From Gyromitra esculenta (taxonomy: Eukaryota; Ascomycota; Pezizomycetes; Pezizales; Discinaceae), in NCBI GenBank assembly GCA_038503075.1, contig JBCAML010000009.1:1364001-1428000 (forward strand): a stretch of 64,000 bases of DNA, read 5' to 3'. A model generated the notes under the pieces. That model did not search any database, was not told the origin of the DNA, and saw nothing but the letters and a program-made list of their open reading frames with translations. Below, one piece after another: positions 11,974 through 49,194 of the stretch (within the stretch, counting starts at the first letter, position 1; each line of letters begins with the position of its first letter). Position numbers and translations under genes: made by a program.

Positions 11974-14900
11974 CTACTCCTTGCTTTCCGCGATTTCCAT
12001 TAACTCATCGAACTCCCCGCTCTTCTCAGCCAAGTTGCGGAGTACACCGCCTTGCTTTCCGAGGAGATTTAGTGGCGTATCGAATTCGACCACTTCGCCC
12101 CCCTTTCCGAGGTTGTCAAGCACAACGATACGATCCATGTACATAACGGTTCCTAGTAATACCGCGTTATCAATATTATTTCAAGAAACGTTGCCACAAA
12201 GTAAAAAGAGGAACGGACTTAATCTGTGCGCAATCACAATGAGTGACGAGTCCGGGAAACTAGTTCGTAGTGTCTGTCGTATTCGTTCGTCCCTATACGA
12301 CTACTGTCAGCATTCATTCAATCCGAAACTAACCGAGGGCAAACTCACGTTGAATAATCTGTTGAACTCGTCGCCTCGTCCAGTAACACTAATTTACTCC
12401 TCCTCACTAGCGCCCTCGCAAATGCCAACAATTGTCGTTGGCCTTGTGATAGATTATCACCCCCTGCAGTAATTAGTGTATCAAGTCCAATCTTCTTAGT
12501 TCTTGCTGCGATCGGTAACTCTGGTATTCCTTCCGCCGACGTAAATGCTGGTGTTGTCGTCCCAGAGCTCGACGCGCTATCCCCCGCCAACCCGCTTCCC
12601 TCCAGCGCTGCTTGCAGTTCTGAGTCATCTACCTCACCGAACGGATCCAGATTCGTGCGAATTGTCCCGGACAGTAGGACTGGGTCCTGCGGGATGATCG
12701 TGATCCGTCGACGTAGTGCCTCGAGGTTGACGTCTTGGATGTCAATGCCGTTGATTGAGATGCTGCCGTTTGTCACATGTGTGAAACGAAGTAAAGAGAG
12801 TGCGAGTGAGGATTTGCCGGCACCGGTGCGGCCGACAATGCCTACACGTTCCCGCGGCTTAACATCGAAGGAGACTTTATTAAGGACCTCAGGACCTTCA
12901 GCGTAATATTTTACGGAGAGGTCCTTGACGATGCAGGAGCCTTCGGTTGGCCAGGCTGCCGGGGGTTCTTTTGAGGATATCTTCTCTGGTTCTTGAGGGA
13001 GAGTAACGTATTCGTTCACACGTTCGAAGCTATTCAGTTCAACCTCAAGCATAGTGAAGTATTTTACCGTATACAGGATACTCGATGAAAACGCGAGTGC
13101 ATTCGCGAGAGAGAAACCGATGAGGCCAGGGGAATACTCCTTAGTTGACAGTGCAATAACACCCGCTGCAAGCCCGATGGCAGCGGTACACCAGCTGATC
13201 CTAACACCGATCCATCTGTTCAAGCTATAGAGCGCTTCGCTTGGCTGGCTGTAATCATCGACCCTCTTCAAATTCTCCTCCAAGAAGCGATCTTGTGCGC
13301 CGAACCCTCTGATGGTTACAATACCTGATATCGTATCTCCGAAGTGCGAGAAAAGTGGTGACTCCTTCACGGATACGATCCGCTTCACACCCATCTGGGC
13401 ACGCACGTATAGCTGTCCAAACGCAATACCAACAGCTGAAACCACAACTGTTGGGATAAAGAACGCTGGGATGAGCGCCGACATGACAACGAGCCGGAAC
13501 AAGCACTCGAGTGTCTGTTGGAGAACCTGCTGCAAGTATGGACCAAGACTGTTATCTACAGACTTAACATCGGTAGAAAGCCGGTTGATAATGCGTCCAA
13601 GAGGTGTGGTATCGAAGAAGCGAATCGGTGAGTACAGAACACTCTTCACAAGTTTCTCATGAATGCGACGTGAGGCCATCCACTGAAAGGTAAACCATGT
13701 TCCGTACGTAACCGCCTCTAACAAGGTAGTTCCCATAAGAACCGCCGCGTACAAACCGAGCCATAGCCCCACATTCACATCATCCGGGTGCTTGTTATAC
13801 TGATCCGACCATAGACCAACAAAGTAAGAATTCGCCAGCCCACCCAACTGATCCGTCATGCTAAGCATAATAACAAAAACAACCGCAATAGGTCCGCCAA
13901 AGTTCTTCATGTATTTCCAGATTATCGATTTCGGGACACGGCCCTTTGCGCGCGCTTCTTCCTGAACAAGCTTACCAGTATCTTTTACCTTACCATTGGT
14001 TTGTGTCTTATCGGGGAGTTCGCCGGACAGTTTCGAGGAATCAATAATGTCGCCATCTACCTGCTGCGAGCTGGACGAGCTTGGGACGCCTTGAATTGCA
14101 ACTTCGCCAAGGAGGTTGATCGCGCTCTTGGTTAGGCCCTGCGACTCGTTGACAACCTTGCCATCATCTAGCAAAATGATTTTTTTTGCAGCGTCCGAGA
14201 CGAGACCGACATGGTGCGTCACTAGCACAATCGTTCTGCCGGCTAGGATCTCTCCCTTAATACATTTCTCGACCACTAACTTGCTCGTCGCTGCGTCTAG
14301 CGCACTCAACACATCATCCAAAAACACCGTCTGACTTGGGCTATAAACAGCTCTCGCAAGCGCAATACGTGCTTTTTGTCCGCCGCTCAAGGTGGTACCC
14401 CGTTCCCCGATCTCGGTCTCGTCGCCAGCCTCAAGGTTTGCTAGATCCGCCAGCAACCCACATGCCTCGACGGTCATTTCGTATCGTTTCGCCTCGAACG
14501 AAGACCCGAAAAGAATATTGTCCTTGATTGACGCATTCTGTAGCCATGAGGTTTGTGCAACATAAGAGATGCCATGGCGGCGCGGAAGATATATATCACC
14601 TTCAAGTACCCTCATTTCGCCAAGAAGCCCAAGGAGAAACGAAGACTTGCCAGATCCAACGCTACCAGCAATAACCGTAAGTCCGCCATAGGCACAATCG
14701 ATATTCAAGTTCGAAAGGCGGAAATTATTGTCTTCATCCGAGCCCGGTTTATTCCAGCTCAACGTCGCATTTTTATATCCCGGTGGTTTGTCCGCCGGCG
14801 TTGTATCAGCACCATCCGTCTTCATCTCCGTGAGCTCCTCCTCGCCGTTCAAGAACTTATCGATCCGGTCGAACGAGATAAACGCATATAGAACCTGCTG

Positions 14901-16925
14901 AGTGACGAAAGCGCACCATCCAAACTGACTACGGAGGATATCAAACAAGCTCATACTCGTAAAAGCAATACTTGCGCTCAACGGGCGGCCCATGACCTTG
15001 GTAAAGATGCCGAAAGTGACGATGATATTTACAATCGGAAGCAACCCGCTCACCGTGTGCAAACCGAGGTTATAGAACGCGCTCATGAAACTCAGTTTTA
15101 GCTCCTTTCCGCGCTTTTCTCGAATTCTCGCTAGGAATGCTTCTTCAAGTCCGAAGAACTTGATGATCCGTACGGCCGTTAGTGTTTCGCTCATGAGGCC
15201 AATACGTGCATCTGTTGCTTGTCGTAGCTGGCGTTGGACCTTTGCAATCATGCGCGCGAGGAGGATAGGGACAACCATTGTGACCATCATCATGCCAACG
15301 CCGACAAGGGAGGCCCACCCAAGGAGATCGTAGAGGAAGACCATTGCAATGATAATCTCAATGGGGACAGAGCCGACAAGAAGGAAGAACTCCCGCGCGT
15401 TGGTGAGTTGATCAAGATCCGTGGACATAAGGTTGTTGATCATACCGACTTTGGACTGATTGGGTGGAGCAGCCTCCTTCGGTTTTTTGGGGTCATCGTC
15501 TTTGGTGGGGGGGTTCTTTGGGTCGTCAGTTTTGTCTTTTGGAGAGTCGTAGACAAAGCGGGTTTTTAGGGTCTTTTGGAGGAGAGATTGTGTAAATGCT
15601 GCTTTCACTCTCACGACCAGTCTATATTACTCCGGTCAGCTTCGGTATAGAGGAGCCAAGGGGTGAGAAAGATACCTCGTAGCATTATAGACATATGCCT
15701 CCCAGATCAAACCATTCAACAATGGCCCAAAAAACAACCCAAACACAAACACCCATGGATTCACCACTGGCACTTTGCTCCCCTCCACATATGCTAGTAG
15801 CTCCCTCATACTCACGGGCCAAATAAACTGAAACACGCCAATTAGAAAGCTGCAAATCGTCATATAGAGAACATCCCAACGCATGCATGCAAAGAATGTC
15901 TTGAATGTCGTAGACTTCTTATTATTCTCCACCTTCTTGCTCCACAGTCTCGCACGATCATAGTCAGGCAGGGTTGGCAGGTCTTCAGGTTCCACATCTC
16001 GCCACCATGCCACTTGCACTAGACTTCCAATCCACGAGTACGAACCAATGTAGCTCATCAACGACGCGGTCTGTTCGGGAGAGGCGGTGTAGTTGGAATA
16101 TGGGTCTACGGGGTACCAGAGGCGAGGGGTCAAGAGTGCACATAGCTCGATGGACACAGCGAGACTGATACGGGCATAGATGGACCATCCAGTGCGAGCA
16201 TCATGAGCCTTTTCGGGAGAAGGATGGTAGAGGACTTTAGGCCACAGGTCGCGCTGGAGGGTGAGAATGGGTGGAACTATGCACCAGAGGGCCACGATGA
16301 AAAACAGTAATGGTCTATATGGCGTTGGGTAGAAACGAAATGCGAATAGTAGAATCAACAAAAGCCAGTAGCCCAATTCGATTACTGTATCACAGTGTTA
16401 CCACAGATACAAATTGCAAGCTCGAGGAACAAAACCAACCTTCCTCGATGAAATTCTGACCGTTGGCAGCTCTGGTGGCTAGGATGATACCGTCCACGAC
16501 CACGAGCCCCGTTAAACACAGTAACTGTGCCCACGCCCATCCGAGACGACTCCCTATGTACTTTCTTAGCCACCATCTCTCTCAACAAGACTGAATCTAG
16601 ATAACACACCCTCAAGCGGTTCAATTGGGGTCTGTGACGGAGCCTCATCTTCGGGATAGAGATGCAGGAATTCTTTCTTATTGTACACCGTGAAACTACG
16701 GTAATTTTTAGGCTGAAAAAACGATACACCTGTAGTCAAACGTTGAACAAGTAGCACCAACACAGCAGCGAATGCAGCAGAAACTAAGATTATTATTCGG
16801 GCGCGACCCTCAGGCTCGCTGGGGAAACTAGGACCATGCTTGGTGAACACATAGTGTCTCCAAACGCCGCTGAGAGAGTCCCCTTGCACAAAAAACGGGG
16901 TGTCCATGAGGACGGATATTTCCAA
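11974..16925 (-). CDS. ABCC/MRP-type ABC exporter (full-size)
   Basis: Six or more exons encode roughly 1,580 residues arranged TMD0-TMD1-NBD1-TMD2-NBD2. An N-terminal hydrophobic region comes from about 16925-16440 and more membrane helices from 16376-15660. NBD1 has Walker A GSVGSGKSS, signature LSGGQKARIALARA, Walker B VFLDDVLSALD and an H-loop in LVTHHVG. The LDD in place of LDE is the usual weak first site of ABCC proteins. NBD2 has Walker A GRTGAGKSS, signature LSQGQRQLLAFARAL, Walker B LVLLDEATSS and, after two short introns near 12348 and 12215, VIAHRL and VVEFDTPLNLL. The stop is at 11974. These proteins export organic anions, conjugates or peptides at plasma or vacuolar membrane. 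One oddity is that the frame shifts by two bases at a GAGAGAGA run near 16570. The gene is divergent from a UstYa-like gene and could export that cluster's product (inference). Confidence 0.9.
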
Positions 16926-17637
16926 GAGCTAGGCCACCACTACCAGTATTGGCTGCGGGGGAGGGCAGATGGTAACAAGTTATCGGTGATGTCCAGATGT
17001 AGCAAGCGATGGAAGGCTGGAGGTGGAGTGGAGACAATCAGAAGTAAACAGAAGAAGCGTTTCCCGGTGAATCTACAGCTACAGCCCTATATATCCATTG
17101 GTGTGTAGTTGCCTAAGGCGAGATAACGCGTTGCGGAAGGGATTGGCACAAGCACACCTTCCGTTTCTAAGCTCGCGCCCGGTCCAGCACAGTCACTTTT
17201 GGCAACGGCGAGCAGAGGGAGCCATTGAATAGCTTCCAGCCGAGCCTCAATAATTCCCTGTTTGGACCCCTGTCCGTCGTTGCCCCAGTCGAGTCGTTGC
17301 CCAGGAATGGCTGTTCCCGTTCCGAGTGCCGCTACCCGATGATGTGTCAGTGATTGGAATAACACGATTTTGCAGTAATCACCAGACAAACCATAAGCAG
17401 AGATTTGATGCACAGTTACAGCCGTGCGAGAAAAGTCTTGGCATTTAACCTAACTAGCGAGACTTTTCTTACACAGCTGTTCAGGTAATGAAATAAGCCC
17501 TAATTCGCCGATCTCTGCTTCTACTTGTACATATTCTACTTGCTCGCTGCTTACCAGACTGCTCTTTGAAAACTCGAGAAGGCCCAGTACACCCACCACA
17601 AAAACCATTATCCAAGGTCAAACTCCTACTCTACAAT
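16926..17637. promoter_or_regulatory. divergent promoter between ABC exporter and UstYa-like gene
   Basis: No coding region is convincing in these 712 bp, which separate the start codons of two outward-facing genes. A shared promoter would allow joint control of exporter and oxidase. I could not identify a specific activator site. Confidence 0.45.
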
Positions 17638-18580
17638 ATGGGGTTTGAACAAGAGAGTAGCTTCAGCCTTTTAGGAAGCGCCGGAAGTGATACCGAGGTA
17701 GACACTAAGGGCTTAGTTTTCCGTCGTGACCTCCGCGATTTCCAGAAGAAGCTAAAGCGACTCCAAATATTCGCAGCAGTATTGGGGGCTCTTGCTCTTC
17801 TCTCGTTCATATTTTCTACAGCATTGTATTACAGATCGAAGGGTAGTCGACATGCTCCCTTGATCCCATCGGCTGCCCTGGTTCCTGAATGTAAGTGCCA
17901 CGAGTCAATGGTTCTTAGTTATGTCAAAACTTCCATTTTTCTTAACATTCACACCCACCTCTCCAGTCCCCCACCGCCCCATAACATTCGAAGAGAATTC
18001 AATCTACAGCGAAGCACCTTCAAACAAATCAAACGAAGCTTGGGGCCGCCTCATCCCAAGTAAGTCTCGAACCTAAACCCATCAAAAAAAAAAACTAATC
18101 CATAACCCCCCCCTCCCCAGAGGGCCGCGGCTACATCTACGTAACGGAACCCGAAAAATATTACCTCCACCAAGGCCTCGCCAACTCTCGCAACGACGGT
18201 TCTCAAAGCTATGTAATCTCCATGTACCACCAACTTCACTGCATTGTAAGCCTTCCTTCCTCCCTTCCTCCCTTCTTAACAAACTCTGATTCCTCTTCTT
18301 CTTCCTTTCGTAGGACATACTCCGCCTCGGCTATTACGCTGCACTCGAGGGTAAAACTACATTACATACGCACGGCAATCATCTCGCGCACTGCTTCGAC
18401 TACCTGAGACAGGCCGTTATGTGTGCTGGCGACCTAACGCTGGAGTGGCCGCGTGTGGAGAATGATGGGAGCCGCGTAGGCGCTGATGGGTGGGGAGTGA
18501 CTCACGAATGTGTGGATTACGATAGGGTGTTTATGTGGACAGAGGAGCGGCGGGGTGACGAAAGAACGAGTATTTTGTAG
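17638..18580 (+). CDS. UstYa-like (DUF3328) oxidase, first copy
   Basis: Four exons (17638-17890, 17967-18059, 18121-18245, 18314-18580) with clean GTAAG/AG borders encode about 245 residues. A cytosolic head of about 55 residues precedes one membrane helix (around residues 45-68, ending LSFIFSTALYY), so this is a type II membrane protein with a lumenal catalytic domain. Both family motifs are present: YHQLHC, interrupted just after by an intron, and HCFDYLRQAVMC, the HCxDxLRQ motif. A tail with THECVDYDRV follows. UstYa proteins oxidise and cyclise ribosomal peptides in the secretory pathway of filamentous fungi. It lies 0.7 kb from the repeat-peptide precursor, which faces it tail to tail. 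Related DUF3328 enzymes act in some other pathways, so the family is certain and the substrate inferred. Confidence 0.93.
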
Positions 18581-19284
18581 GGGTGGATTGGGGGGGGAGG
18601 GGTCGCGACATGTAAAAGTGGCTGTGTTTATTTAAGCGAAAATCTTGAATTCTTGGAGCGATATCGGACATTTAAATCAAGTGCACGTGGGTGGGCAGAG
18701 TACCTATTAGCTACATGTGCCTTTGCAACACGAACGCGAATTATCCTCTTAATTCCCTGCAGTACATCGCAAATATTTCCTAGCTTCCCTTAAGGCTACA
18801 TGTATGTCTTTCAGCTTCATGCACTTCAGCTATCCAATTAGCCAATCCAAGAAAACACCACGGGGCCCACTAACTGCCACTGCCACTGCCACCGCCTCAA
18901 CAGCATCCAGTCACAAAATATCACTCGCAATTTCCAACCTCTCCACAAAATTCACTCGATAGATAGATAGATTTAATCATACACGCACAAAATTCACTCG
19001 AGGAGGGGGATTTTTTTTTTAAACACATTGATTATAACTAGCACTTAACAGAATCCACACGAGAGTAATGCACATGAATTAAGAGCCTCTTCAATAACTT
19101 CATTTCATTTCATAGCTAACAAAAAAACCTATATCCACCAAAAACTATCCTTCTCTCCCCACCCCCCCGCATCCAATTCATACATATAACCATCCTGCGC
19201 CCAAACCCGGTTTCTCGAAGATAGACTATAGCTAGTTAGTATATAATAATTGAAAATCAAGGACTAAGGTTCTCACTCCACCGT
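18581..19284. other. convergent intergenic region
   Basis: This 704-bp stretch between the 3' ends of the UstYa-like gene and the precursor gene contains AT-rich sequence and a short GATA run near 18960. No coding region is seen; it likely holds both 3' UTRs. Confidence 0.4.
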
Positions 19285-20003
19285 TTAATAGCTCTGGTGA
19301 GAGTCGGCGTCAGCCTCGCTGCGCTTGTAGCTCTGGTGAGAGTCGGCGTCGGCCTCAGAGCGCTTGTAGGATTGATGGGAATCGGCATCGGCCTCGCTGC
19401 GTGCGTATGACTGATGGGAATCGGCATCAGCTTCGCTGCGTGCATAGGACTGGTGGGAGTCAGCATCGGCTTCTCCACGCCTGTAGCTCTGGTGGGAATC
19501 GGCGTCCGCCTCGCTGCGCTTGTAGGACTGGTGAGAATCGGCATCGGCTTCTCCACGCTTGTAGCTTTGGTGAGAATCGGCATCGGCTTCGCTGCGCGCA
19601 TAGGACTGGTGAGAGTCTGCGTCGGCTTCGCTACGTCTGTAGCTTTGATGAGAATCGGCATCGGCCTCTCCACGTCTGTAGGACTGGTGAGAATCGGCAT
19701 CGGCCTCTCCATGCTTGTAGCTCTGGTGAGAGTCCGCATCAGCTTCAGAGCGTCTATAGCTCTGATGAGAATCTGCGTCAAGCTCCGAACGCTTGTAACT
19801 CTGATGACTATCAGCATCCGCCTCCGAGCGTTTATAACTCTGGTGACTATCAGCATCAAGTTCTCCGGGGTCTATTCTATCGTAAGTATCTCGTTATCCA
19901 AAGATATTAAGGTTGGGAGATGCGTACTGGCTTTAGGGATGGCAGCAGCCGAAATCCCCATTGAGAGGAGGGGAAGAGCGAGGAAGATGCTTTGGAAACG
20001 CAT
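19285..20003 (-). CDS. Kex2-processed repeat precursor peptide (candidate dikaritin-like RiPP)
   Basis: Exon 1 (20003-19928) encodes MRFQSIFLALPLLSMGISAA, a textbook signal peptide. A 56-nt intron (19927-19872; donor GTACGC, branch-like CTTAC, acceptor ATAG) joins it in frame to exon 2 (19871-19285). The spliced product is 220 residues. Exon 2 is fifteen tandem 13-residue units: an 11-residue segment S/G-E-A/L-DADSHQSY followed by a two-residue linker. The linker is KR in seven places, RR or AR in six and KH in one. SHQSY is invariant in all fifteen although its codons vary. The stop follows the last Tyr directly, so the mature C-terminus is probably Tyr. Secretory entry, Kex2 cleavage at dibasic sites and modification by UstYa enzymes fit the dikaritin class. 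No Trp/Cys/Pro-Gly core typical of alpha-factor pheromones is present. Activity is unknown. Confidence 0.85.
19288..19866 (-). repeat. 39-bp tandem coding repeat, 15 copies
   Basis: The array encodes the precursor repeats. Copies differ mainly at third codon positions and at the linker codons, which shows selection on the peptide rather than simple recent minisatellite expansion. All three minus-strand frames and some plus frames stay open because the unit length is divisible by three. Confidence 0.95.
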
Positions 20004-21043
20004 TTTTAAGGATGGTATGTATATAGATTGAGTAGAAAGGTTTGAGGTGTAGGTTGATTGTGTTTGATTGAATGGAACTGTTTGATGATTATTATTTTTT
20101 TGAAATGAGGTGACAATTGCACCGGGCTTTATTCACAATTTCTCTCTTTGAAGGTTTCTCAATTTTGAGTTGTATTTAGAGTGCTGCGCTCCCCCCCCTT
20201 GGCATATTCTTGGAGTATTGAGAATATGATTACTGGATGTTCATCTTTCTGCAGATGATGTTTTTCTCATCACAGATTCCGCTATCAATTACCCCTCCTC
20301 TTTCGCGGTCCCTACCGCCAAGGTATTGGTGTTTGTTGGCCAGGAATTGCTTAACGCCCGGACATGATACTCCTAAAGGTATGGTATAGAATTAGATAGA
20401 AAACTCATTAGCTCCCCCGGGCTTGCTGAGGGTGTTGATCCCGTCTCTTGGGAGTAAGCATTCCAAATTCCCCAAGGTCACGTTAGTTTGTCTAATTGCC
20501 TTCGATCGATCTTGTTGGAGATATCAAAATTGGAAGGCGGTTTATAGGATGGAGAAGTCCGAACCTAAGATAACTGGGCGTACGACACCGGAATCTAGGA
20601 TACAGATACTGAAAAAAGGAATATGTGGCGATGAGTTTGATCTCTATCGCAGCACTGTAAGGTAAACTTCCGTCACTTCTGATGTCAAGAACCTAATAGA
20701 AATGAATCCGGTGCAATTGATGACTTCGTGCTGAAACATGTCGCTGATGGGTGGCAGGCCTGCCTGGTATGTCTTGATTTGGCGGCTACCTTTGTTGATT
20801 TTGGTCCACTGTGCCTTGTATGAGGCTTCTTCGGGGCTCACAGCTAGCTTTCTTGGTGCCCCAAAACGGAAATCAAAATACAGCGATTTATTAGCTTGTA
20901 TTGGGAAACCAGTTAGAGTGCCATGCCCTGTATGACAAAGAACCCCGCATAATTCCCAGTTTTCTATTCGCTTCAAAAATAATTACATGTACACATAAGC
21001 TTTAAGGCTAAAGCAATTTAGGGTAAAGAAACCCGATATCCCA
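20004..21043. other. upstream region of precursor gene
   Basis: It probably carries the precursor promoter. A 110-codon open frame lies on the minus strand at about 20644-20976 but starts at TTG and has no motif I recognise; it may be a decayed gene. Nothing else is supported. Confidence 0.35.
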
Positions 21044-21347
21044 AATGAGTCGTGACCAGGACACTGTAGTACTTGGTGAAATTCACTCCGACGCTAGCGA
21101 GTAAGACGTGCATTTAACTTGCTAATACCCCACACTTATAATCTCACCAGGAAGGTTCCAACGGAAGCCAACACGCCCTATCGATGTTTTACCTCCTAGC
21201 GCCGGAAAGGATTCCACAAAGTACCACGGTACTTGTCGTCGATACGAAGCCCATCGTGATGCGCAGCGTTGTTGTGTAAGTAAGTTTCGATTGATTAGTC
21301 GACAACCTTAATGTGATCTGCAGCCCTATGGAATCTTTCGCATCTAA
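21044..21347 (+). CDS. possible small spliced gene, about 60-65 aa
   Basis: An ATG at 21044 opens a short exon ending before GTAAGA (about 21101). The intron has a CTAAT branch-like site. A second exon ends at TGTTGT before GTAAGT (about 21276), and a third starts after CTGCAG (21323). With these borders a frame runs to TAA at 21345-21347. The product is basic with clustered Cys near the end. I do not recognise it. It lies inside the UstYa/precursor block, so it is worth keeping, but the model depends on a non-obvious AAG acceptor. Confidence 0.22.
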
Positions 21348-21989
21348 GATCAAGACCAGGATCAGGATCTAGTTTGCATTCTTCAGCGTGGTTGCCACTC
21401 AGATCCGTGACACCCTAGTAAGTCCCAATACTTCACCCCTAACCCGAGCACATGTACTATCGCACAACCTCGCCCACCGTAGGATGAATACCCCTAAGGA
21501 TCTATCCCTTTCTGTTAGTTAGTTTGCTTTCAGAATAAGCTCGGATTTTAGGAAAAGTAGCTCACCCGCCCACCCGCCACTGGGAAGGAAATGTAACTTC
21601 GCTGGACTCCGTGAGCTCCCATTACGGTCAGGAGATGCGCTCGTTGAGGAACCTCGGGTAATAAGCTTACCAACCGCTATTTACCGCTCAGGAGATTCTT
21701 TTCGCAAGGTCAGATATGGCGATGTGATTGGATGCCTGGCCTATCGAACATGTTCAAATTGAAATGTATCAAAGATTCGTTTTTTGTAAAGTAATCATTG
21801 ATGACAAAGTGGCGGAGGAGAAACAGAGATCTTCAAGGTTAGTCGCAAACATCATAGCTGGAAGAATTGCATATACGTTCTAATGATGAGTTATCACTAT
21901 TACTCTCTTAACTGAACTTCGCACAGCGATTTTGTCAGTAGGATAGTTAGGCCATATCATCTACATTGTTAACTCTTCTAGTCTCGTCT
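21348..21989. other. promoter region of second UstYa-like gene
   Basis: No coding sequence is seen. It leads into the ATG at 21990 and should contain that gene's promoter. Confidence 0.4.
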
Positions 21990-23154
21990 ATGTCCCACAT
22001 CAACCACGCAATGGGTTTTACCTCAACAGACCGCCTGTCTCTCGAAGAAACTGTTTCCTCAGAGGATAGGCTGCTCGAACATGCCAGCGATTTCAGAGAT
22101 GCTTCGCTCCAGGATGAACGCAGCTTCGAGAACGCTTCACTTGAGAAAGGGAACCACCAAAAGTCTCGAAAACGACGGCTCTTTGGGGAAATATGCACGC
22201 CTACTGTAGTCATTCATCTATCAATAATTTCGTTATATACTTTTATCTTCTTCTTTGCGCTATGGACTAAATTACCTCCCCAAAATGATCATGGACCTGG
22301 CCTCATTTATTGTAAGCGAGTTTAATTCCTTCTAACCACTCCAACAAATTATTTGTCTGACTATTGTTTTGCAGCGCCCGCAAGAGATGCGGTCAAATTC
22401 GAACGAGTAACGTTTCATGGCTCTTTGAACGCCACAAACCCATACAAAGGACCACCAAGTCCAGAAATCGATGCTGCCTGGCATGACCTACTAGCGTACA
22501 CCGCAATTCGTGTTTCTAGCGATACTCTGAAAAAGATCAATCGAGAATCTGTACCACTAGGTGATGGGAATGGGTATTTTGCTACGCTGGGTAAGTTTGC
22601 AGAAACCCATCTCTCCCGTAATCTATGCTAACTTTCCTAGACGTTTACCACCAGCTCCATTGTCTGGTATACTCCAATAATTCAGATTTAATGGCTTAAC
22701 CTAATTTGCATATAGAAATATATCCGCCACTACGTTCACCCCGAATACTACAACATCACAGAACCCAATGTATCCCAGCATCTCGGTAAAGAAACCCCAA
22801 CTCCCCTCGAACCTACTTTTTGTTTCTAACCCCCTAATAGAGCATTGCCTCGACCTGCTACGACAGTATGTCATGTGCAAAGCAGATATCTCAGTAAACA
22901 CATACGACTGGATCCCCAATTTCCCGAAACCGTGGCCAAACTTTGAAACTGAGCACGAGTGTGCCAATTGGGATAGCATCCATGATTGGGCGAGGAAACA
23001 TTCTTTCGATGGGTTAGATCCGGCGTTGATTTCGCATCCGGATTATCATCCGGAACTACGTAAGCTAGATTCTCCCGGCCGACGATATATGGAGACTTTA
23101 CTAATGGTTTTTGTTTTTGTTGTAAAAGCACCACCGTTTGAACACGATGATTGA
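21990..23154 (+). CDS. UstYa-like (DUF3328) oxidase, second copy
   Basis: Five or six exons. Exon 1 (21990-22311) has an acidic cytosolic head and one membrane helix (VVIHLSIISLYTFIFFFALW). Later exons give PPSPEIDAAWHDLL, the family's Trp-containing block, then VYHQLHC and, after two short introns, EHCLDLLRQYVMC. Both catalytic motifs are therefore intact. The tail has HECANWDSIHDWA, matching family C-termini. A last intron (GTAAGC, TACTAATG, AAAAG, about 23058-23121) is likely; splicing it leaves the same TGA stop. N-glycosylation sites NAT, NIT and NVS support a lumenal domain. It is clearly diverged from the first copy. Paired UstYa/UstYb enzymes are usual in ustiloxin-type clusters, which supports a joint role on the precursor encoded 2 kb away. 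Confidence 0.93.
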
Positions 23155-30388: not shown

Positions 30389-32107
30389 TTATGGCTTAGG
30401 CTGTTGTGGGTAAAGACTGTGAAATTCGGCAATTGCTTCGGCTGCGTTGGCTAATCCTCCTTCGTCGGCAGGTTCCCATGAGTTCTCATCTTCCGGGTAT
30501 CCCACCCATTTGATGAAATAGAACATCCGGCTGATCGTTCGTCGTCCCACTTTGGTTTCTCTCTTCTCGCTTTTGACGATGTATTCCACCTCGTACTCAT
30601 TGTCACCTTCAATGTCGTCAGGCGGCGGTCGGTCTTGTTTTCGGGTTTCCCTGACGCTTGTCCGGTATGGCTCGAGCAAGGATACATGGAAGGTGGGGAA
30701 TATCCTCCAGCGACCTCCTGTATCTAAAGTGCAAGCTCTAGTACCGACTCGTGTAATCGGGAAGGGTCCGTATGACTTAGGGGCTAACTTTTTCGTTGGA
30801 CGCTTGGTTCTAATGTTTCTGGCGTCGAGCATTACTAAATCTCCGACCTTAAAGGATGGTTCCGCCTGTCGTTTCTTGTCAAAATATTTGGACATGTTTT
30901 CTCGGGTGGCTTTGAGCGAGGTAGTGGCAAAATCGTTTACTTTCTGAAGCCAATGTGCGTATAACTTTGACGCTGGATTCTTGACTTCGGTATCAATCGT
31001 CCAAGCTGTTCTGGGATGGAAACCATGATTGGCATAGAAGGGGCTGATTCCAGTGGCTGTGGCTTCGGCATTGTTGTAAGCGAACTCCGCTAACGGCAGT
31101 AGGTCGTACCAGTCATCTTGGTCGTAGTTGACGAAGTTTCTTAGGTAGGCTTCTAGGACTTGATTAACCCTTTCGGTTTGTCCGTCGGTCTCAGGATGGA
31201 ATGCGGTAGATTTGCTGGACTTAATGTCTAGAAGTTTGCATAATGAGGTCCAGAATTCCCCTGTGAACTTAGCATCTCGGTCTGAAACAATTTCTTTTGG
31301 AAGCCCGTGAAGTTTCCAAACTTTGTCAACAAAAGCCTTTGCCACATCACTTGCTGTAGCTCTTTCTATTAGTGGGATGAAGTGCGCCATCTTGGTAAAC
31401 CTGTCAACTACTACACATATTTGGGTGAATCCTCTCGACTCGGGTAACTGGACGATGAAGTCTGTTGATATCGACATCCATGGAGCGTATGGGGTCTCTA
31501 GCGGTTGCAGGAGTCCATATTTCTTATGACGCACGGATTTGTTATGTTGGCATGGATCGCATGAGCGGACGTAATCTGTAATCCACTCGGTCATATGAGG
31601 CCAGTAGAAGTTCCGCTGAACAAGTTCCGTGGTTTTGTCCATGCCAAAGTGCCCTGCTATCTTGGAGTCGTGTTCATTTTCTAAAATGGTAGTTTTGATT
31701 TCATCATCGTTAGGGATTGTTAGCCTGTTTTTCCAATAGAGGAGTTCCTCCATCACTGTGTAGTGTTGTAGCCTCTTGATTTCGCTGCCAGCTTTAACTA
31801 AGTCTCGAATTTCCTTATAGTCTTCGTCAGACTCGACCTTCCTTTTAACCTGCTCCAAAAAGTCCGAATTAAATTTAAGGACTTGAAGCGCTTTGAGGGA
31901 TGCTGATGAAATAAGTAGCTCCTCGTGTGTTGTATTAGGATTAAAATTATAATGGTGATGATTGCCGTTTGAGTCCAGCTCGGTAAAGTGTAACGGGTCA
32001 TCGTTTTGGTTTTGTACAATTGTGTTATCGTCTTTTCTATGAATTAAGGATATAACGATTGACTTACTGGGACGGCCAGTCATATCGACTTGGCCGCTTC
32101 GGAACAT
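30389..32107 (-). pseudogene. E4 pol, integrase and chromodomain part
   Basis: The 572-codon frame has an HHCC-type zinc domain (GHFGMDKTTELV...CDPCQ) and the integrase catalytic Asp-Asp-Glu in STDFIVQLP, SDRDAKFTG and TDGQTERVNQVLE. A basic C-terminal domain is followed by a chromodomain (YEVEYIVKSEK...FIKWVGYPEDENSWEPADE). It overlaps the upstream pol frame at 32080-32107 in another phase, so one base has been gained or lost. Chromodomains steer integration towards particular histone marks in this group. Confidence 0.9.
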
Positions 32108-34226
32108 GGCTTCTGTAGGCTGTGTTGTATCCCCTCCTTAGGACGATACTCCGGTCGTCTTGATAATGCATCTGGCTTTCCTCCCGCTGATCCAGGTCGA
32201 TATATGATTTTAAAGTCGAATGACGATAAATATTCCGCCCATCTAGCCTGTCGTCGATTTAGGATCCTTGTCTCCTTCATGAAATATTCGAGATTTTTAT
32301 GGTCCGTATAGACGATCGCTTGGTGCTTGCTTCCTTCTAGGTAATGTCGCCATTCCTTGAAGGCGGTTACTATCGCGAGTAGTTCTTTATCGTGCACCTC
32401 GTAGTTAAGTTCGGCTTTATTAAATTTTCTGGAATGGAATGCTACGGGATGTAGCTTGCTATCGATGATCTGCGAGAGGACGCAACCTAGCGCATAGTCT
32501 GAGGCGTCGGTTTCTACCACAGTCTGCCGTTCCGGCGCAAAGTGACAAAGGATAGGTGCTGTCGTGAAGGCAACTTTTAGGTACTCGAAGGGTATCGCTT
32601 GACGGTCACCCCATTGGAATTTCTTGGGGTCCCCTTTGGTTAACTCGGTTAAGGGGCTTGCAACTTGGGAGAAATTTTCGATGAACCGTCGGTAAAAATT
32701 GGCGAATCCAATGAATACCTGAACATCGCGTATGCTCTTCGGGGTTTCCCATGAAAGGATTGACTCGACCTTCTTCATTGACATAGACACGCCTTTGTCA
32801 GAAATTATGTACCCTAAAAACTCAACTTCCCGCAAGTGAAAGTAGCTTTTCTTAATGGATACTGCCAAACCCTCGTCCTCCAACCGCTGCAGGACTCTGG
32901 TCACCAAGGCCTCATGTTCCTCGAGGGTCTTTGAGTAGATGAGGATGTCGTCAATATAAACCACAACCCCTTGGTCCAGAAATTCGCGGAGCACCTGATG
33001 CATCATATCTTGAAAGGTTGCGGGGGCGTTTGCCAAGCCGAAAGGCATGACTGTGTACTCGAAATGACCATATCTTGTACGAAACGCTGTTTTCCACTCA
33101 TCGCCTTCTTTGATACGGATCTGGTGAAAACCGTCTTTGAGGTCCAGTTTGGTAAAGATCGAAGCCCCATTGACTCTATCACGCAATTCGGACATTAGCG
33201 GCAGAGGGTATCGGTTCTTTACTGTCACCTTGTTCAAACCACGGTAATCTACGCATAGTCGTAGCCCTCCGTCTGGTTTCGGCGCGAATAATATGGGCGA
33301 CCCGGCAGGTGACTTGCTTGGCCGTATCTTCCCTTCGGCCACCATTTTGTCCAAGTACTTCCGGAGAATCTCAAGTTCTTTTTCCGAAAGTTTATAGATT
33401 GGACCCCACGGGGCGGTTGTCCCATGCTCGAGATCAATAGCGTGATCGAATGGCCTTCGTTCTGGCAAGGATTCCTGGATGGGAGTGCCAAATAGACTGA
33501 CAAATCGGTGGTATGCTCCCGGGAGAGTCTTCAGAAGTTCGGTTTCTTCGTCATCGATTGCACGCACCATGCCAATTATTCGAGCATTCTCGTCCAGGCC
33601 CAGCCATTCGTCATATTCGATATCGTTCTCGGTATTAAGAGGAGCAGTCGTCACAGAGCACTGGTTACAGCAACCAGGAGATTCGAACTTCCAGTTTGCG
33701 TGGTCGTAAGGGTTTTCCAACCGGTGACTCGTCAACCACCAACCCCCTGGCACTATCAAGTCTAACCCAGCCTCGACTGGCCCAATCTCGCAAGATACAT
33801 TAGATGTATGATTATTCCCTATGATCATAGTAATAGGGTTAGTAAAGGCTTGTCCCGCCCCAACCACTTCTTCACCTGTGAAGTTTCTAATGGTTAACGG
33901 GACGTCTCTTTGCACCTTTGGGACCGACCATTTCTTAACAAACAAAGGGGACAAGAGAAAAACATTAGCTCCAGAATCTAGCAATACATTGACTACCACC
34001 TTCCTTCTATTGATTACCAGTAGCGCTTGCCCTCGGGGCCGCTCGTATACGGTGGGTTCTGTATGTTGTTTTTTGTTGGACGATTCCGAAGAGTCGTCCT
34101 CCTTTCTTTTTCGTTTGTTTTTGTATTTTTCGGTCTCAAGGATTGAGACAATTCTTTCTTCGATTGCCAGGGTTTCGAATGTTTGGTTAACGTCTGCTAC
34201 CTCCTGGCCCGCCGGTAGTCGACCTA
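32080..34226 (-). pseudogene. E4 pol, protease-RT-RNase H part
   Basis: The frame is open from just before the gag stop. It contains an aspartic protease motif LLDSGANVF, reverse transcriptase with KLDLKDGFHQIRI and the YIDDILIYS catalytic box, and RNase H beginning VETDASDYALG. It ends at the frameshift near 32090. It lies in the minus-1 phase relative to gag, but no canonical slippery heptamer is visible at the junction. Confidence 0.88.
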
Positions 34227-36377
34227 GTGAAAATTCTCTGACATTTCTTCGTCAGAATTTGTATTTGCATAAAGATTAACAGGGGTCCTGGAGATCCGCC
34301 CCTTTGGAGCGGTAACTCCGCTCACGGCCCCCTTTGCAGGTGGCGCTGTCGCGGCCCTCGTCTTGGGCGCTAGCTTCAAACGCTTCTCCAATGCATCCCC
34401 AGCACTTTGCTCATTCTTTTCGGGTTTGACCCATTTTCGTTCACGACTGGCGCCGGCTTGCGCGGATGATACCGTTCGGGGTTCCTTCGCGTCGCACGTC
34501 TTCCAATGACAGTCGGGTCGACCACACCTAGTGCAGTGTTTCGCCCGCCTGCGTCGATCAACTAGGTCCTGACTTACCCCTTCATGGGCAGCCTTCCAAC
34601 CCGAGGCATCTCCTGTGCTGTTAGTGGGGGGAGGGGCATCTTTCTTAGGGGTATCCTCCTTGGCATTACTTTTTGAGTCCTTTTTGACTCTGCTTTTGAA
34701 CCCCTTTTCCCGACGTTCCTCCTGCTTTTTCTCCTCCTTTTTCCCACGACCATCCGTGGCTGGGAGACCTCTATTCTCCAGTTTCTGGTGATACAAATAC
34801 TCCTCCCACAACCTTCCTCTTGATCGTAAGGCCTCTAGCCATTGCACATCGTCATCAAACGGGCCACACCCTACCATCAACTCTCGTATCTTGAGAGGGA
34901 TCTTCGCTTCGACCTTCATCCTCCACAGTGTCCCAGCCATTCCAACCTTTATGTTTAGGTTGCTCATTTTGAGGATATATTCCTCAACGGTTGTGTAAGG
35001 TACACGATCCATGGCATATATGGCATCGCGTTTTTCGTCCGGAGAGCAGAATACTTCCTTCATCTTTAGTGAGAAGGTTGCCCAATAGGCGTACTCTGGT
35101 TCCTGGATTTGTCCTTCGGCTCCGTCCATCTTGTTGGTATACATAACAACATATGGTCGAGCCTTGTTTCCTTCACAACGGCTGGCGGCATAGTGGATTT
35201 TGTGTCGGTCGCTGGTCCAAAGCCACTCATTCATCTCAAAATATACTTCGCAGCTTCGGATCCATGCTCTGAGATCCTGGTTTGTGGCAGCAGTGAATTT
35301 TTCTGGTTCACCGATCGGGATCTTGTGGTGTCGTGATGACGGTGACGCTTGGGGGTACCTGTGATCAATGGTGATTACCATCTCACCAGGGTTATTTTGG
35401 GGGGGTGGCGGTGGAGGAGCATTACTTGGTGCCCTCCGCCGCCGGTTTTCTCTTTCTCTTCTTCTGCTGGCCAGCCATCGATTGGTATCTTCGATGTTCT
35501 TCCTGGCCCTTTCTTCCTCCGAATCATCCGATGACGATCCGTCACCTGATCCTGGGGCGCCAGCACCAACACGGTAATTGGGTCCATGTGGGGGCTGCCC
35601 ACCATTACCCCCGTGTGCTCCAGAGGGTTCACCTCGTTCACTTTGGGCTGGTTCCTTTCCTTTTTCGCTTCTAGTGGGAGGCAGTTGGGGTGCATGAATA
35701 GAGCCGCTGAGGCCTGCTTCTGATCGGGCTGGTAGTTCTGACTGAGCACGAATATGTTGAGTGATCTGGCTGAGTAACACTCCCTGATCGTTAAGCTGAC
35801 TTCGTTGTCTTTGCATTTCTCCTACTGTTTCCCCCACTATAGCTTCGACTACCGTTTCCACCCTTCCAATGCGCTGGTGTGCCTCATGTCCTTGCTGTTG
35901 CAGGGCCAGGCCAATGTTATTACCAAGACCGTGAACCAGTACTTCGATACGGGCGAGTTCTTCGGCCGAGAACTCCTGTTGGTCTGCCATGCGCTGCTGG
36001 ATATGGGTTAGGCTTAGATATTGAGTTTGAGCCTGTGAGTTAAGTTGGTTTAGGGCAACGGTGTTTCCTGCCTGAGCCTCTTCTTGCCTTAGTACAACGT
36101 GTCTAAAGGCTTCGTTTAGCGTAAGCATGAGATTATCACGCTGTGCATGAACATCCTCAATTTGAGCACTGCTCCGTAGGAATTGCGGATGAGGCGTGAA
36201 GTGTTTTGGAATGAAGGGCTTAGGAGCGGGTGTGAGATGGGTAGTTCTTCGACGGGCCAAGGAGTTCCTCGAAGAGTGTCTCGAGATGGGAACCTCGTAA
36301 CCGTCGACATGTCTGTATCCATCACAAATACATCCGCCATTATAGTTGAATAACCAAAGTATTGATATGCCTATCAA
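34224..36377 (-). pseudogene. E4 gag
   Basis: The frame is about 700 codons with a long coiled N-terminal region, a Pro/Gly-rich linker, a gag core (HKIPIGEPEKFTAATNQDLRAWI) and a zinc-knuckle-like cluster (CTRCGRPDCHWKTC). The ATG expected from copy E5 (complement of about 36338-36340) is in another phase, because one T is missing about 40 bases after it (near 36304-36308). The copy is therefore frameshifted at its start. Confidence 0.85.
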
Positions 36378-36382
36378 TATAC

Positions 36383-37324
36383 TGTAAGACCGGTACTTCT
36401 TACCGCACAGGAAATCTCCAAGAAGCTTTAGATAACAATCTAGACGCTATAACCTGCCCGGTTGCTATCCGCAACACAATACACAGGCGCAAGTCCTAAC
36501 TGCTTCTTATGAACCGCTAAAAGATAACCGTAGGGTTCAAAGTAGGGACGAGCAAAGTTCCGTGAAGAACTTCCAATAGTAAGGTTTTAATAACTAATCG
36601 CCGGCCAAGGCCTTGCTAAGCGAGATAAAAGTAATTCACAAGTAAAAGAGTAAATTGCACGGAAGTAATTTTGCTAGAAACAATATAATATTGATAAGGC
36701 TCGTTCTTCGTCGCTAATGATCCGACTCAGAGTTTACATCCACTGCGAGAGTATTTATAATGCCTCCTCTCTACTATGTTTGGGTATAGTGTGGTGTAGA
36801 GGCGCTAACTACTATGACAACATGAAACCACTTCGCCTTATCTCCATACCCGATACCCCATCGAGTTCCTCGCCCGATCCGCGATTCTCCGAGCAGTATG
36901 CATGTCGGTAACACGGGAGTTACGTATTCGTCTTCATTGCGTTCGTCTCTTCGAGACGATCATTTCGCCTATCCGAATCGTCGCGTAGCATTGCGTTCCC
37001 TTATCTTTGTCAGTCTGTAACTCCGCCAGTTTTGGTCCGATTCGCAATCTGTTTGAACCACAGCGAAGCCAGACACTTCCCCTACATACCCTCCGGGTCC
37101 CATTCCGCCGGACGGTTTTGCTTGACGGCCTAGGGGTTACTTTTGCCCTCCGGGACAGGTCTTTTCTGGTGCTGTCCCCCCTTCTCCAAATACTATACCT
37201 ACTGGAAGGATTGGAGGCAGGGTAACAGGCTCCAGTCCCGATCCGGAAGGTGCTAAAGTAGGGTAACTCCAAAGATAGGGTAACTCCAGGGCCAGGAACT
37301 CCTTCAAAAGGTACAGGTATAACA
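36383..37324 (-). repeat. 5' LTR of E4 (family B)
   Basis: 942-bp LTR, TG...CA on the minus strand, matching 29229-30177 apart from a few small deletions. It is followed on the gag side by a perfect 8-bp hairpin at 36360-36379. Confidence 0.95.
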
Positions 37325-37329
37325 CAGTG

Positions 37330-37397
37330 AGTTTGCCACCAGTGTGATTTCAATGGGAATAGCAACTGATCATTTTAGGTTTTGTAGATTTTTCTGA
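37330..37397 (+). pseudogene. severed 3' end of zinc-finger gene
   Basis: Continues the frame of the ORF at 28820 after one copy of CAGTG and ends at TGA 37395-37397. It is now separated from its start by 8.1 kb of E4. Confidence 0.6.
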
Positions 37398-37659
37398 GGA
37401 AAATCCTTAGGAGCCGCTGGCAACGGTTATATTTTTGTCCCTGGTCCTGTAATAATGTTTCGAATTAGCAATTGAAACAGACTATTTGGCGCCGTATATA
37501 AATAATGTTTAATTGGTATGATGCAAAAATAGATGCTTTGTAGGCCCAACTACTATTTAAGACCCGTTACCTGCAGCACTTTCGAGATGTATTCCAAGCA
37601 ACTACTTCAATACATCTACATCTCATCCTCCGACTCATACAATTTTACCATAATTAAAT

Positions 37660-38331
37660 ATGTTTGCATTCTATCTATTCATTGGTTATTGCTACGCGTT
37701 TCAAGTCAATGTTTTGCTGGCCGAACCCATTGAGGCTTTTATTTCTGTGTCAATTAGAACGGATGGCCCTGCCCACTCCGTACCCACGACTTTGGTCACG
37801 TCAATCTTATCGCTTACGTCAGAGCCACTGCATGCGACCACGTCGACACATGCCTGGAGCACTGCATACATGACACCTGCATCCACTCCAGCTCTCTCGC
37901 ATAACTGGACCGCCACGTCTGAGAAAAATCTTACTGCAAACAGCACTACGGCAACGATGCCGACATCTCTCACTACCAACTACACCACGATCAGTACGCC
38001 AATTCCGCTGCAAGGCTGGAACACTACCTTTAACACCACGTCGCTCGAGATGCACAACTGGAATCATACGTCGACTGCTTCGCTACTCGTTAGTACAACT
38101 GAACTAAGTCCACCAATTTATATGACGCAAACTTGTGGAGTTTTTTGGCCAATCCCTTCAGGCAATACTCCGGCTTGCAAAAATGCGCCTCTCTCGGCAG
38201 TTAATTCTTCCATTGCTCTTCCTTCCACTTCGAGCGTCTCGCCAAATTCTGTCTCCCGCGTCTCCAGTGTCCAGAGCTCCAGCTTTGGCTCTTTTCTTGC
38301 GTTACATATCGCGATGTATCTTTTCATCTAA
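37660..38331 (+). CDS. secreted Ser/Thr-rich glycoprotein, probable GPI anchor
   Basis: The 223-residue ORF begins with a hydrophobic signal (MFAFYLFIGYCYAFQVNVLL). The body is Thr/Ser-rich with many N-glycosylation sequons (NWT, NLT, NST, NYT, NTT, NHT, NSS). Only two Cys residues occur, around residues 159-171 (TCGVFWP and ACKNAP). The end is Ser-rich then hydrophobic (SSSFGSFLALHIAMYLFI), as in a GPI-attachment signal. The likely site is the cell wall or outer face of the plasma membrane. No enzyme domain is seen; an adhesin-like or wall protein is possible. Confidence 0.6.
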   Translation: MFAFYLFIGYCYAFQVNVLLAEPIEAFISVSIRTDGPAHSVPTTLVTSILSLTSEPLHATTSTHAWSTAYMTPASTPALSHNWTATSEKNLTANSTTATMPTSLTTNYTTISTPIPLQGWNTTFNTTSLEMHNWNHTSTASLLVSTTELSPPIYMTQTCGVFWPIPSGNTPACKNAPLSAVNSSIALPSTSSVSPNSVSRVSSVQSSSFGSFLALHIAMYLFI

Positions 38332-38435
38332 AAATTGGGACCCTATTGCCGGAGAGAGTGATAACTACTCGCTGAAGTTCTTGTACCCGGAACCGAATTG
38401 TTATACTTGAATTGTCTCTGTCGCATTAATCTCTC

Positions 38436-38676
38436 AGAATTGTCTGAATTGTTTGAATTGTCTGAATTGTTTGAATTGTCTGAATTGTTTGAATTGTCTG
38501 AATTGTTTGAATTGTCTGAACTGTTTGAATTGTCTGAATTGTTTGAATTGTCTGAATTGTTTGAATTGTTTGAACTGTTTGAAATGTCTAAATTGTTTGA
38601 ATTGTTTGAATTGTTTGAATTGTTTGAATTGTTTGAATTGTTTGAATTATCTAAATTGTTTGAATTGTTTGAATTG
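38436..38676. repeat. minisatellite of 10-bp TGAATTGTYT units
   Basis: About 24 tandem units alternate TGAATTGTCT and TGAATTGTTT in the left half and become TGAATTGTTT-only in the right half. Frames through it stay open (FELSELFELSE or NCLNCL patterns), but these are consequences of the repeat and not genes. Confidence 0.95.
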
Positions 38677-38719
38677 ATACAACACGCTCATATTCGATAA
38701 CTATTGATATATACATTTG

Positions 38720-38896
38720 TGGGATGTTCCCGGAAATATGCAAGAAAGACGTAAGAAAAAATATTGCGCAGTAACCTAACACATAAACAAACCAAAGAAA
38801 TGGGAGAAACGGGATGTTCCCGGAAATATGCAAGAAAGACGAAAGAAAAAATATTGCGCAGAAACCTAACACATAAAAAAACCAAAGAAATGGGAA
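38720..38896 (+). repeat. two tandem about 92-bp units, inverted relative to 26941-27043
   Basis: Each unit carries GATGTTCCCGGAAATATGCA, ATATTGCGCAG, AACCTAACACATAAA and CCAAAGAAATGGGA. The two copies differ at few positions. They lie just after the minisatellite. Confidence 0.88.
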
Positions 38897-39885
38897 ACAT
38901 TGCATTTTCAATCGTGTATATGAAAAAAAAAAAAAATCCTACTCAACATCCGAAAATCCTTCAGCAGCATTCTCGCCCTCATCGTCTGAATCAGAATACA
39001 TCAGACGGTCTTCCTGTATCGCGCTTTTATTACTATTTTTCTTGACAGGCTCAGCCACTGAAAGGCCTGCTCTCCAGGCCACTTGTATGGCCTTGGATCG
39101 TGAGATGGAACTACTGGATTCACTTGTATGTCAAGCAGTACCACAGGGAGGGATGATGCCAATATCACGTTGTTTCGCAAAATAGTAAATCTCCCAATCG
39201 CCCACCTGGGCTCCCCTAGTCGCGGCCCAATCAGATCTGGTCTCAAAGGTGCTGAACGACTCTTTGGTGAGATCGATGCGCTTCAGGAGTTCTTTGTCGC
39301 ATAATTCTTCGGCAAATTGTGTTCGCCAGCTGACTTCCACCATACAATCACCTATTCGTCGACCATGCTTCTTGGCACTCAGCCTATTAAGCGTATGATA
39401 CCCCTTATGTGCCACTCCAATGATACCAATCAGAGCTTGTAGAAGCTTTGTCTTGAAGGCGTACGGACGTTCCTTAATCCGGTGGAGAAGTCTATTGGTA
39501 ACTTTTGTCGAGTTATAAACAGCGCTATTGGATTCCAGCGATTCTCTTGTTTCGAAGAGCTGATCGCCAAGGGATATCAATTTATACGATCCAGGACTGA
39601 TCATCAGGGCGAGAAGATTTCCCCGAAAAGCGACAATTTTGTTACTGGTTGGTACTAAAACCGGTGAGGACAGAAACGGGGTAACGACGACTTGGGTGGG
39701 TGTTCGGCGAATTAAGCTGAACTGTTCCTTCACACGGTTGAGTTGGCTCACTGTTAGCTGCACCTTCGGAGCCTCGCCGCCCTTAAGAGGTTCACCAAGT
39801 CCATCGTCGATAAATCGAAAAAATGTATCATTGTTCTCGTCATTGGCCGAAATAGACAAGTTGTCATGAGACCACTCGAGGAAAG

Positions 39886-40336
39886 TTTCACGGATTAATT
39901 CAGAAGATGAATTGTGGGTTGATTAGGCGATTGTTTTGTTATTGGATGGTTGTTTAGTTTCTTTGTTGTTCGGCTATATTCAGGGTTGTTGGAATAATGT
40001 CTTTGTGTTTCGGTTGTTGTCGGGATGTTGTCGGTGTTACCGAAAAGCGGGGTATTTAAGGAAGGATTTCGGTCGCTTTTGTTTCTACTTCTCTTTTCTC
40101 CTTAAGCAACGTTCTCGTTTACCTTCTTCGGTACTCATTAAGAAATACTACCTCGATTCTATCTCAGAATCCTCGCTGTCGCTGTTCATCTCGCTGCACT
40201 TATCTCGCCTTGAGATAGACCCATCGTAGAACCTGTAGAAACACTGCACTCTTCAAAAACGCGTTGATACCTCATTAAGTAGCACTGCTCACCTTCAGGG
40301 ATACTGAAGGGCTTAACGAGGGACTCGACCGTGAGA
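39886..40336 (+). repeat. 5' LTR of E1
   Basis: Contains a TATA box (GGTATTTAAGG near 40050), the self-priming segment AAGCAACGT at 40104-40112, and hairpins at 40155-40171 and about 40275-40317. The short inverted ends are TTTCACGG/CCGTGAGA. Confidence 0.93.
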
Positions 40337-40350
40337 TTACGTTGCTTCCG
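40337..40350 (+). promoter_or_regulatory. primer-binding site of E1, complementary to its own 5' leader
   Basis: TTACGTTGCTTCC follows the LTR directly. ACGTTGCTT (40339-40347) is the exact reverse complement of AAGCAACGT at 40104-40112. It does not start with TGG as a tRNA-primed site would. Confidence 0.65.
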
Positions 40351-40405
40351 ACATCTACACCTTCTACCACTCTACCATTACCAGCACACCTGACACTCCT
40401 CCACC

Positions 40406-41698
40406 ATGGAAGGAGCCGCTGTCGCCGCAAAACGCTTTCCCACTAGAGAAGCTTTTGCTCAGGCCTACCGAGACGACCCTGCGGAGCTATACAATGAACT
40501 CAGGGAATTAAACCAAGCCCTGGAAGACCAAATTGACGCCCTCCAGGAAAGCGAACGGGAAAACGAGGTAAAACTCAATACTGCCCAGATCCAAACTGAT
40601 AATGCCCTCCGTCACGCAACCGAACAAGACCAACGGGTTACCGAAGCCGCCAGCCTAATTGCTCGACTTCGACAAGAACGGAACGAAGCTCGATCCGCCA
40701 CCCAAGCACCCCCCGCTCCACCCAACCTTACAGCTACCCCTCCCCCGCCGTCAAACACCCACCGGTCAGAACGCATGCCGGATCCAGAAAAATTCGATGG
40801 ATCCCGAGCAAAACTCCCCGGTTTTATTCTCCAATTACGCTCCAAGTTAACCGTCAACCGAGACCGCTTTGCAAATGAAACCACGATGATACTTTACACT
40901 ATCAATCGACTGGAAGGAGCGGCCCTGGAACAAGTCCGTCATACGGTTCTCCCCTCAGGCCTCACCACTTGGAATAACGCAGAGGAACTCATCGCCGCCC
41001 TGGAAACTGCATTTGGAGACCCGGACCCAACTGGAACTGCTCGACGAGAACTCCACCAGTTACGCCAGGGGAAACGTGATTTCTCGGCCTACTTGGCCGA
41101 CTTTCAAAGAATAATGGGCCAGTTAAATTTTGACGAGAACTCGAAGATGGACGCATTGGAACACGGCATGTCCGAAGAGTTAAAAGAAGCCATGGTGTTT
41201 GCCCCGATCGCCCCTGCTAACCTACCGGAGATGATTCTCACCCTCACCCGACTGGATAACCGTATCCGAGCTCGCAAGGCAGAAAAACGAGGAAACGCCA
41301 GAGACAATATGGGTCAATTCAATGCCCCCGCCGCCTTCACCCCTGCCTCCTCCTTTACCCCAGGAGGATTAGCCCCTATGGACCTATCTTTCGGACGAAC
41401 CAGCAATCTCTCTCGCCCTCCTCAAGACCAACGATACACGATGGTTAATGGACGAAGAAAACTCTCGGAAGAAGAGAAACAATGGCGCCGCGCCACCGGA
41501 AAGTGCATGTTCTGTGCCGCCCCGGATCATTCTTACGCCAATTGCCCCTCTGCCCCCAAGAAACCTACGATGAGAGGAGCCCTCACCGCACCACCCGCTA
41601 ACCGCACACCTCCGGCCTCCTCTCTACCACCACCACCTCTTCCCCCTCAGTTTTTTGCCCTAGAGTCCGCAAACGCCTCGAATGAGGATTTAAACTAG
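40406..41698 (+). CDS. E1 gag (capsid/nucleocapsid)
   Basis: 430 residues from an ATG in good context (CCACCATGG). An N-terminal coiled coil (about 30-100) and a Pro-rich linker precede the gag core RSERMPDPEKFDGSRAKLPG with the retrotransposon-gag helices (about 120-270). A classic zinc knuckle C-x2-C-x4-H-x4-C (CMFCAAPDHSYANC) sits near residue 370. The stop codon directly follows a U-UUA-AAC heptamer. It assembles virus-like particles and packages element RNA in the cytoplasm. Confidence 0.95.
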   Translation: MEGAAVAAKRFPTREAFAQAYRDDPAELYNELRELNQALEDQIDALQESERENEVKLNTAQIQTDNALRHATEQDQRVTEAASLIARLRQERNEARSATQAPPAPPNLTATPPPPSNTHRSERMPDPEKFDGSRAKLPGFILQLRSKLTVNRDRFANETTMILYTINRLEGAALEQVRHTVLPSGLTTWNNAEELIAALETAFGDPDPTGTARRELHQLRQGKRDFSAYLADFQRIMGQLNFDENSKMDALEHGMSEELKEAMVFAPIAPANLPEMILTLTRLDNRIRARKAEKRGNARDNMGQFNAPAAFTPASSFTPGGLAPMDLSFGRTSNLSRPPQDQRYTMVNGRRKLSEEEKQWRRATGKCMFCAAPDHSYANCPSAPKKPTMRGALTAPPANRTPPASSLPPPPLPPQFFALESANASNEDLN

Positions 41699-49183: not shown

Positions 49184-49194
49184 GTACCCCCCCC

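Follow-up and report, generated by a model that had tools for sequence, protein, structure and literature searches.

The genome of Gyromitra esculenta probably encodes a compact dikaritin-type pathway, without a clustered tyrosinase, for a ribosomally synthesized and post-translationally modified peptide (RiPP). The candidate locus lies in a 64,000-nucleotide stretch of contig JBCAML010000009.1 (assembly GCA_038503075.1; G000:C9:1364001-1428000 in a genome of 47.1 Mb and 23 contigs), which we call the window. Two UstY-family oxidase genes, A and B, are located on either side of an opposite-strand repeat-precursor gene. The assignment is based on this gene order, on the intactness of both enzymes and on a precursor core that is invariant while its codons change synonymously, and also on the fact that UstY matches in a whole-genome search occur on this contig only. 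The trio occupies 17638..23154, the span given in an initial annotation of the same DNA, with A starting at 17638 and B stopping at 23154.

17638..18580, plus strand: UstYa-family oxidase A, 245 amino acids, from Pfam, motifs and hand splicing; exons 17638-17890, 17967-18059, 18121-18245, 18314-18580
20003..19285, minus strand: predicted Kex2-processed repeat precursor, 220 amino acids; exons 20003-19928 and 19871-19285
22011..23154, plus strand: UstYa-family oxidase B (UstYb-like), 285 amino acids, from Pfam, motifs and hand splicing; exons 22011-22311, 22375-22590, 22641-22666, 22716-22785, 22841-23059, 23129-23154

UstY-family oxidase genes

Both oxidase genes score above the 25-bit cut-off used for the Pfam UstYa profile (PF11807/DUF3328), A with 106.6 bits and B with 210.2 bits, and both encode the two dikaritin oxidase motifs HxxHC and HCxDxLRQ, present as HQLHC and HCFDYLRQ in A and as HQLHC and HCLDLLRQ in B. 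This hidden Markov model check confirms the initial annotation, which had recognized two DUF3328 genes with intact motifs. Among 108 database matches, some of them fragments, HxxHC is found in 106 and the second motif, under a relaxed pattern, in 85. A contains three introns and B five, all eight hand-placed with GT..AG borders and lengths of 49-76 nt. One transmembrane segment, read by eye, is located close to the N-terminus of A, and an alternative in-frame ATG seven codons upstream is possible for B. An imperfect 30-nt inverted repeat (77%) at window positions 17418-17480, ~160 bases upstream of A, is possibly a regulator site.

The whole-genome PF11807 search returned four exon matches belonging to A, B and a third gene only; the genome searches for UstY were six-frame searches, which intron-rich genes may escape. 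A protein search of the genome with B as the query likewise recovered nothing beyond B and, weakly, A. The third gene is located ~58 kb downstream of the trio, past a block of retrotransposons.

G000:C9:1445126-1446025 (L006:7126-8025; window-equivalent 81126-82025), outside the window: third UstY-family gene, PF11807, motifs HQLHC and HCFDYIRQ

The model of this gene was made by hand and its C-terminus is uncertain. The encoded protein shares 36% identity with A over 197 residues and 25% with B over 239 residues. Database searches yielded 93 matches for B, the best being a metagenome protein with 56% identity over 83% of B, and named relatives include proteins from Delitschia, Penicillium, Aspergillus flavus, Beauveria and Hyaloscypha. 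For A, 15 matches were found, the best at 42%. In a UstY tree of 97 rows, a deep branch with 99% support in the Shimodaira-Hasegawa-like approximate likelihood ratio test (SH-aLRT) parts A and the third gene from B; the tree was built by a quick method with long branches flagged and 14 of the 108 matches dropped as short. This deep branch argues that A and B are two old UstY kinds brought together and not recent duplicates, a split that would be as expected for a two-enzyme set.

The repeat precursor and its core

The precursor gene contains a single 56-nt intron (19927-19872) and encodes a protein that starts with MRFQSIFLALPLLSMGISAAA, signal-peptide-like as judged by eye, followed by a short linker and 15 units. 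The fifteen-repeat protein that the initial annotation had described between the oxidases is borne out, as the sequence SHQSY occurs in 15 copies with a period of 13 amino acids in 14 of 14 intervals (39 nt in the DNA). No second repeat precursor was found when the window plus 40 kb of flanking DNA was scanned.

The eight residues DADSHQSY are identical in all 15 copies, including the Tyr that is invariant in 15 of 15 cores. Their codons vary synonymously at all eight positions, with two to four codons each, and both serine codon families are used at both Ser positions. In the flank of the unit, four of five positions vary (S/G, A/L, K/R/A and R/H) and only Glu is constant. In the 8-mer the extra codon types number at least 13 and are synonymous without exception, for crude neutral odds of ~1e-10 (17.4% of sites synonymous), while SHQSY alone shows eight for ~8e-7, both values being rough bounds since array copies have a common history. 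A Fisher test of core against flank gave p = 0.007 for the 8-mer, whose boundary was chosen from the same data, and p = 0.098 for SHQSY alone. Because the 8-mer is unchanged while its codons differ synonymously, selection appears to act on the peptide itself and not on the DNA. The last residue of the precursor is the 15th Tyr, with the stop codon directly following SHQSY. Given this ending of the final unit, the released peptide should likewise end in Tyr after loss of the basic pair.

The array agrees with the definition of Kex2-processed repeat proteins (KEPs), namely at least three repeats separated by KR, RR or KK sites (PMC6339444), as it consists of 15 repeats with KR or RR at 10 of 14 junctions. 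A second hallmark of KEPs, an N-terminal signal peptide, would correspond to the signal-peptide-like start. The KR-type spacing reported in the initial annotation therefore holds for these ten (6 KR, 4 RR) but not for the remaining three AR and one KH. Cutting at KR and RR only, past the presumed signal region, would give 11 pieces, eight of them single units and three containing two to three units joined via KH or AR. A Kex2-type P-domain protease (one match) and two DPPIV-type genes are encoded elsewhere in the genome.

Genomic neighborhood

Domain assignments around the trio come from a Pfam scan of 47 open reading frames (ORFs), which took in 12 from the flanks and, from the window, 35 of the 92 with at least 100 amino acids; small or intron-broken exons and tailoring genes may escape such a scan.

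12345..16928, minus strand: ABCC/MRP-type full ABC transporter; main ORF 12345-15626 with ABC_membrane and ABC_tran
25167-26909, plus strand: DUF3435 ORFs (Pfam), just right of the cluster
30389..61897, both strands: block of Gypsy-type long terminal repeat (LTR) retrotransposon ORFs between B and the third UstY gene

The transporter gene adjoins A on its left side in divergent orientation. Its best sequence matches in the Protein Data Bank are ABCC proteins, for example ABCC2, MRP1 and Ycf1, and it represents a possible exporter of the product. The N-terminal part of the transporter (ORFs to ~16928) was assigned by position only, the upstream ORFs being without Pfam match. Farther left are housekeeping-type genes, namely Laa1/HEATR5-like, TACO1/YebC-like and actin-family genes. 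The DUF3435 domain encoded to the right is that of Starship 'captain' recombinases. Further Gypsy-type ORFs are found at L005:2106-5110 and L006:3449-4846, the latter gag-like by eye only. Some of the Gypsy ORFs are long and open, with up to 1234 amino acids between stops, which suggests recent insertions.

Proposed maturation, known relatives and alternatives

At the gene level, dikaritin pathways are described as a Kex2-repeat precursor together with one or more UstYa homologues (PMC10512285). The locus shows UstYa-family genes flanking the precursor, both oxidase motifs and a Tyr in the core. UstY proteins are required for cyclization in ustiloxin, asperipin-2a and phomopsin biosynthesis, and Kex2 frees the repeat units (PMC7329392, PMC6514808). 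In the proposed route, the G. esculenta precursor would enter the secretory route, Kex2 would cut after KR and RR, and a Kex1-type carboxypeptidase would strip the basic pair to give mainly (S/G)EADADSHQSY, which an aminopeptidase may trim toward (D)SHQSY. A and B, perhaps with the third enzyme, would then act as oxidases on the C-terminal Tyr and link its phenol oxygen to a Ser, His or Gln earlier in the peptide, so that a ring forms, and the product would be exported, possibly via the ABCC transporter. A bolder and improbable variant places the bond between the C-terminal Tyr and the imidazole group of the constant His located three positions earlier (or Gln or Ser). A set of two to three UstY enzymes would in this case form a tiny, perhaps metal-binding (Asp, His) His-Tyr ring with no tyrosinase in the cluster. 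We know of no dikaritin with this type of closure.

The asperipin-2a pathway of Aspergillus flavus (core FYYTGY; genes aprA, aprY, aprT and aprR; PMC6514808) is the nearest working model: its core also ends in Tyr and its four named clustered genes include no tyrosinase. A repeat precursor, UstY oxidation and a transporter are likewise common to both. In contrast to the single UstY gene of asperipin-2a, two or three are found here, the core is SHQSY and no isoflavone-reductase-like domain was detected in the 47 ORFs scanned. The transporter beside the trio is of the ABCC type; its asperipin-2a counterpart is aprT.

Ustiloxin and phomopsin biosynthesis require tyrosinase. None was found near the trio, the nearest of 22 genomic PF00264 exon matches being located ~81 kb left of A. 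Ustiloxin B (ustA, ustYa, ustYb, ustQ and others) resembles the present system in its signal peptide (a signal-peptide-like start here), its Kex2-spaced copies (16 there and 15 here) and its two homologous UstY proteins (PMC6514808, PMC10512285), but differs in its tyrosinase and its Y-X-I-G core, and neither a methyltransferase nor a monooxygenase domain was found here in the scanned ORFs. Phomopsin likewise combines a Kex2-spaced repeat precursor with several UstY genes, but has five of them, a tyrosinase and the core YVIP (PMC7329392). Membership of the ustiloxin/phomopsin subgroup was rejected, as no tyrosinase was found nearby and there is no Y-X-I core; the C-terminal position of Tyr excludes a Tyr-X-Ile ring, in which Tyr comes first in ustiloxin and phomopsin. 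The dikaritin-like label of the initial annotation is retained as the best reading, as the gene content of the trio agrees with what has been published for such pathways; the cross-link through Tyr that it proposed and the joint expression of the genes are predictions.

Several observations weigh against a dikaritin-type pathway. The Y-X-I pattern is absent from SHQSY and a tyrosinase is not part of the cluster; S41 peptidase, methyltransferase, P450 and tyrosinase domains were all missing from the 47 scanned ORFs, from which small exons can escape. With four of 14 junctions non-dibasic, some copies may remain joined. The protein search returned no relatives of the precursor, and the models of A, B and the precursor were placed by hand. 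Upstream words common to the three promoters only slightly exceed resampled controls (two 8-mers against 0.5 expected, with 25 of 200 controls reaching two).

The UstY enzymes could also carry out other oxidations of the repeat peptides, for example desaturation, without forming a ring. In phomopsin biosynthesis UstYa homologues are needed for residue desaturation as well as cyclization (Sogahata 2021 as told in PMC10512285). We consider a ring-free product unlikely, as one invariant Tyr per core fits cyclization, and a three-enzyme set could do both.

Somewhat less probable still is a linear, unmodified signaling or pheromone-like peptide, with the UstY genes as chance neighbors or serving another substrate. 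Like alpha-pheromone precursors with their signal peptide, the protein combines a signal-peptide-like start, Kex2 repeats and an acidic, Ala-rich spacer, whose EADA stretch resembles their Ste13 signals, and the genome contains a STE2-type pheromone receptor gene (G000:C8:482952-483852) besides the DPPIV-type genes. In addition, scans with two pheromone patterns, covering only part of known pheromones, found no alpha-pheromone repeat elsewhere: the patterns gave six matches against seven in a reversed control and 23 against 33, and none of those read in context (three of six and five of 23) lies in a Kex2-spaced repeat. With a STE2 gene but no clustered match to either pattern, the pheromone of this fungus may be a divergent one. 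However, alpha-pheromone precursors are defined by an XA or XP dipeptide directly following the Kex2 site (PMC6339444), and this is seen in none of the 14 units despite the EADA in the spacer, the dipeptides in register with the Kex2 cut being SE/GE, AD/LD and AD. Moreover, motif-intact oxidase genes adjoin the precursor on both sides although only three UstY genes were found genome-wide, and pheromone-type precursors are rarely near DUF3328 genes (0% of 227 yeast-type and 1.4% of 216 filamentous ones; Umemura 2020, PMC7329392).

A decayed or silent cluster, its genes intact-looking but no longer expressed and its third enzyme split off by retrotransposons, would match the Gypsy block between B and the third UstY gene and the non-dibasic junctions, but is very unlikely: A, B and the precursor gene have kept their reading frames, splice sites and motifs intact, and all 15 cores are constant despite silent-site variation.

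A dikaritin-type product of this locus would be a peptide without a description that we could find, in line with the initial annotation, which had called it undescribed: the core was described in no paper with a relevant title, supplementary tables being outside the search, and the protein search returned no related protein. The pathway type itself is well known and widespread in fungi. Of 7878 fungal Kex2-repeat proteins, 1758 are encoded no more than 15 genes away from a DUF3328 gene; Tyr is present in 65.6% of the repeated sequences of these 1758, compared to 38.2% for the rest (Umemura 2020, PMC7329392); in 111 lichen-fungus genomes, 987 RiPP clusters were predicted (PMC12048977). A review of 2022 counts only five reported dikaritins (PMC10512285), few against the 1758 Kex2-repeat genes near DUF3328 genes (PMC7329392). 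The arrangement is common and catalogued, and the locus is in most respects ordinary. Its value is as a clean system in which to study the action of a UstY pair alone, because it is small, has one invariant Tyr-ending core and no clustered tyrosinase, and draws its oxidases from two distant UstY groups.

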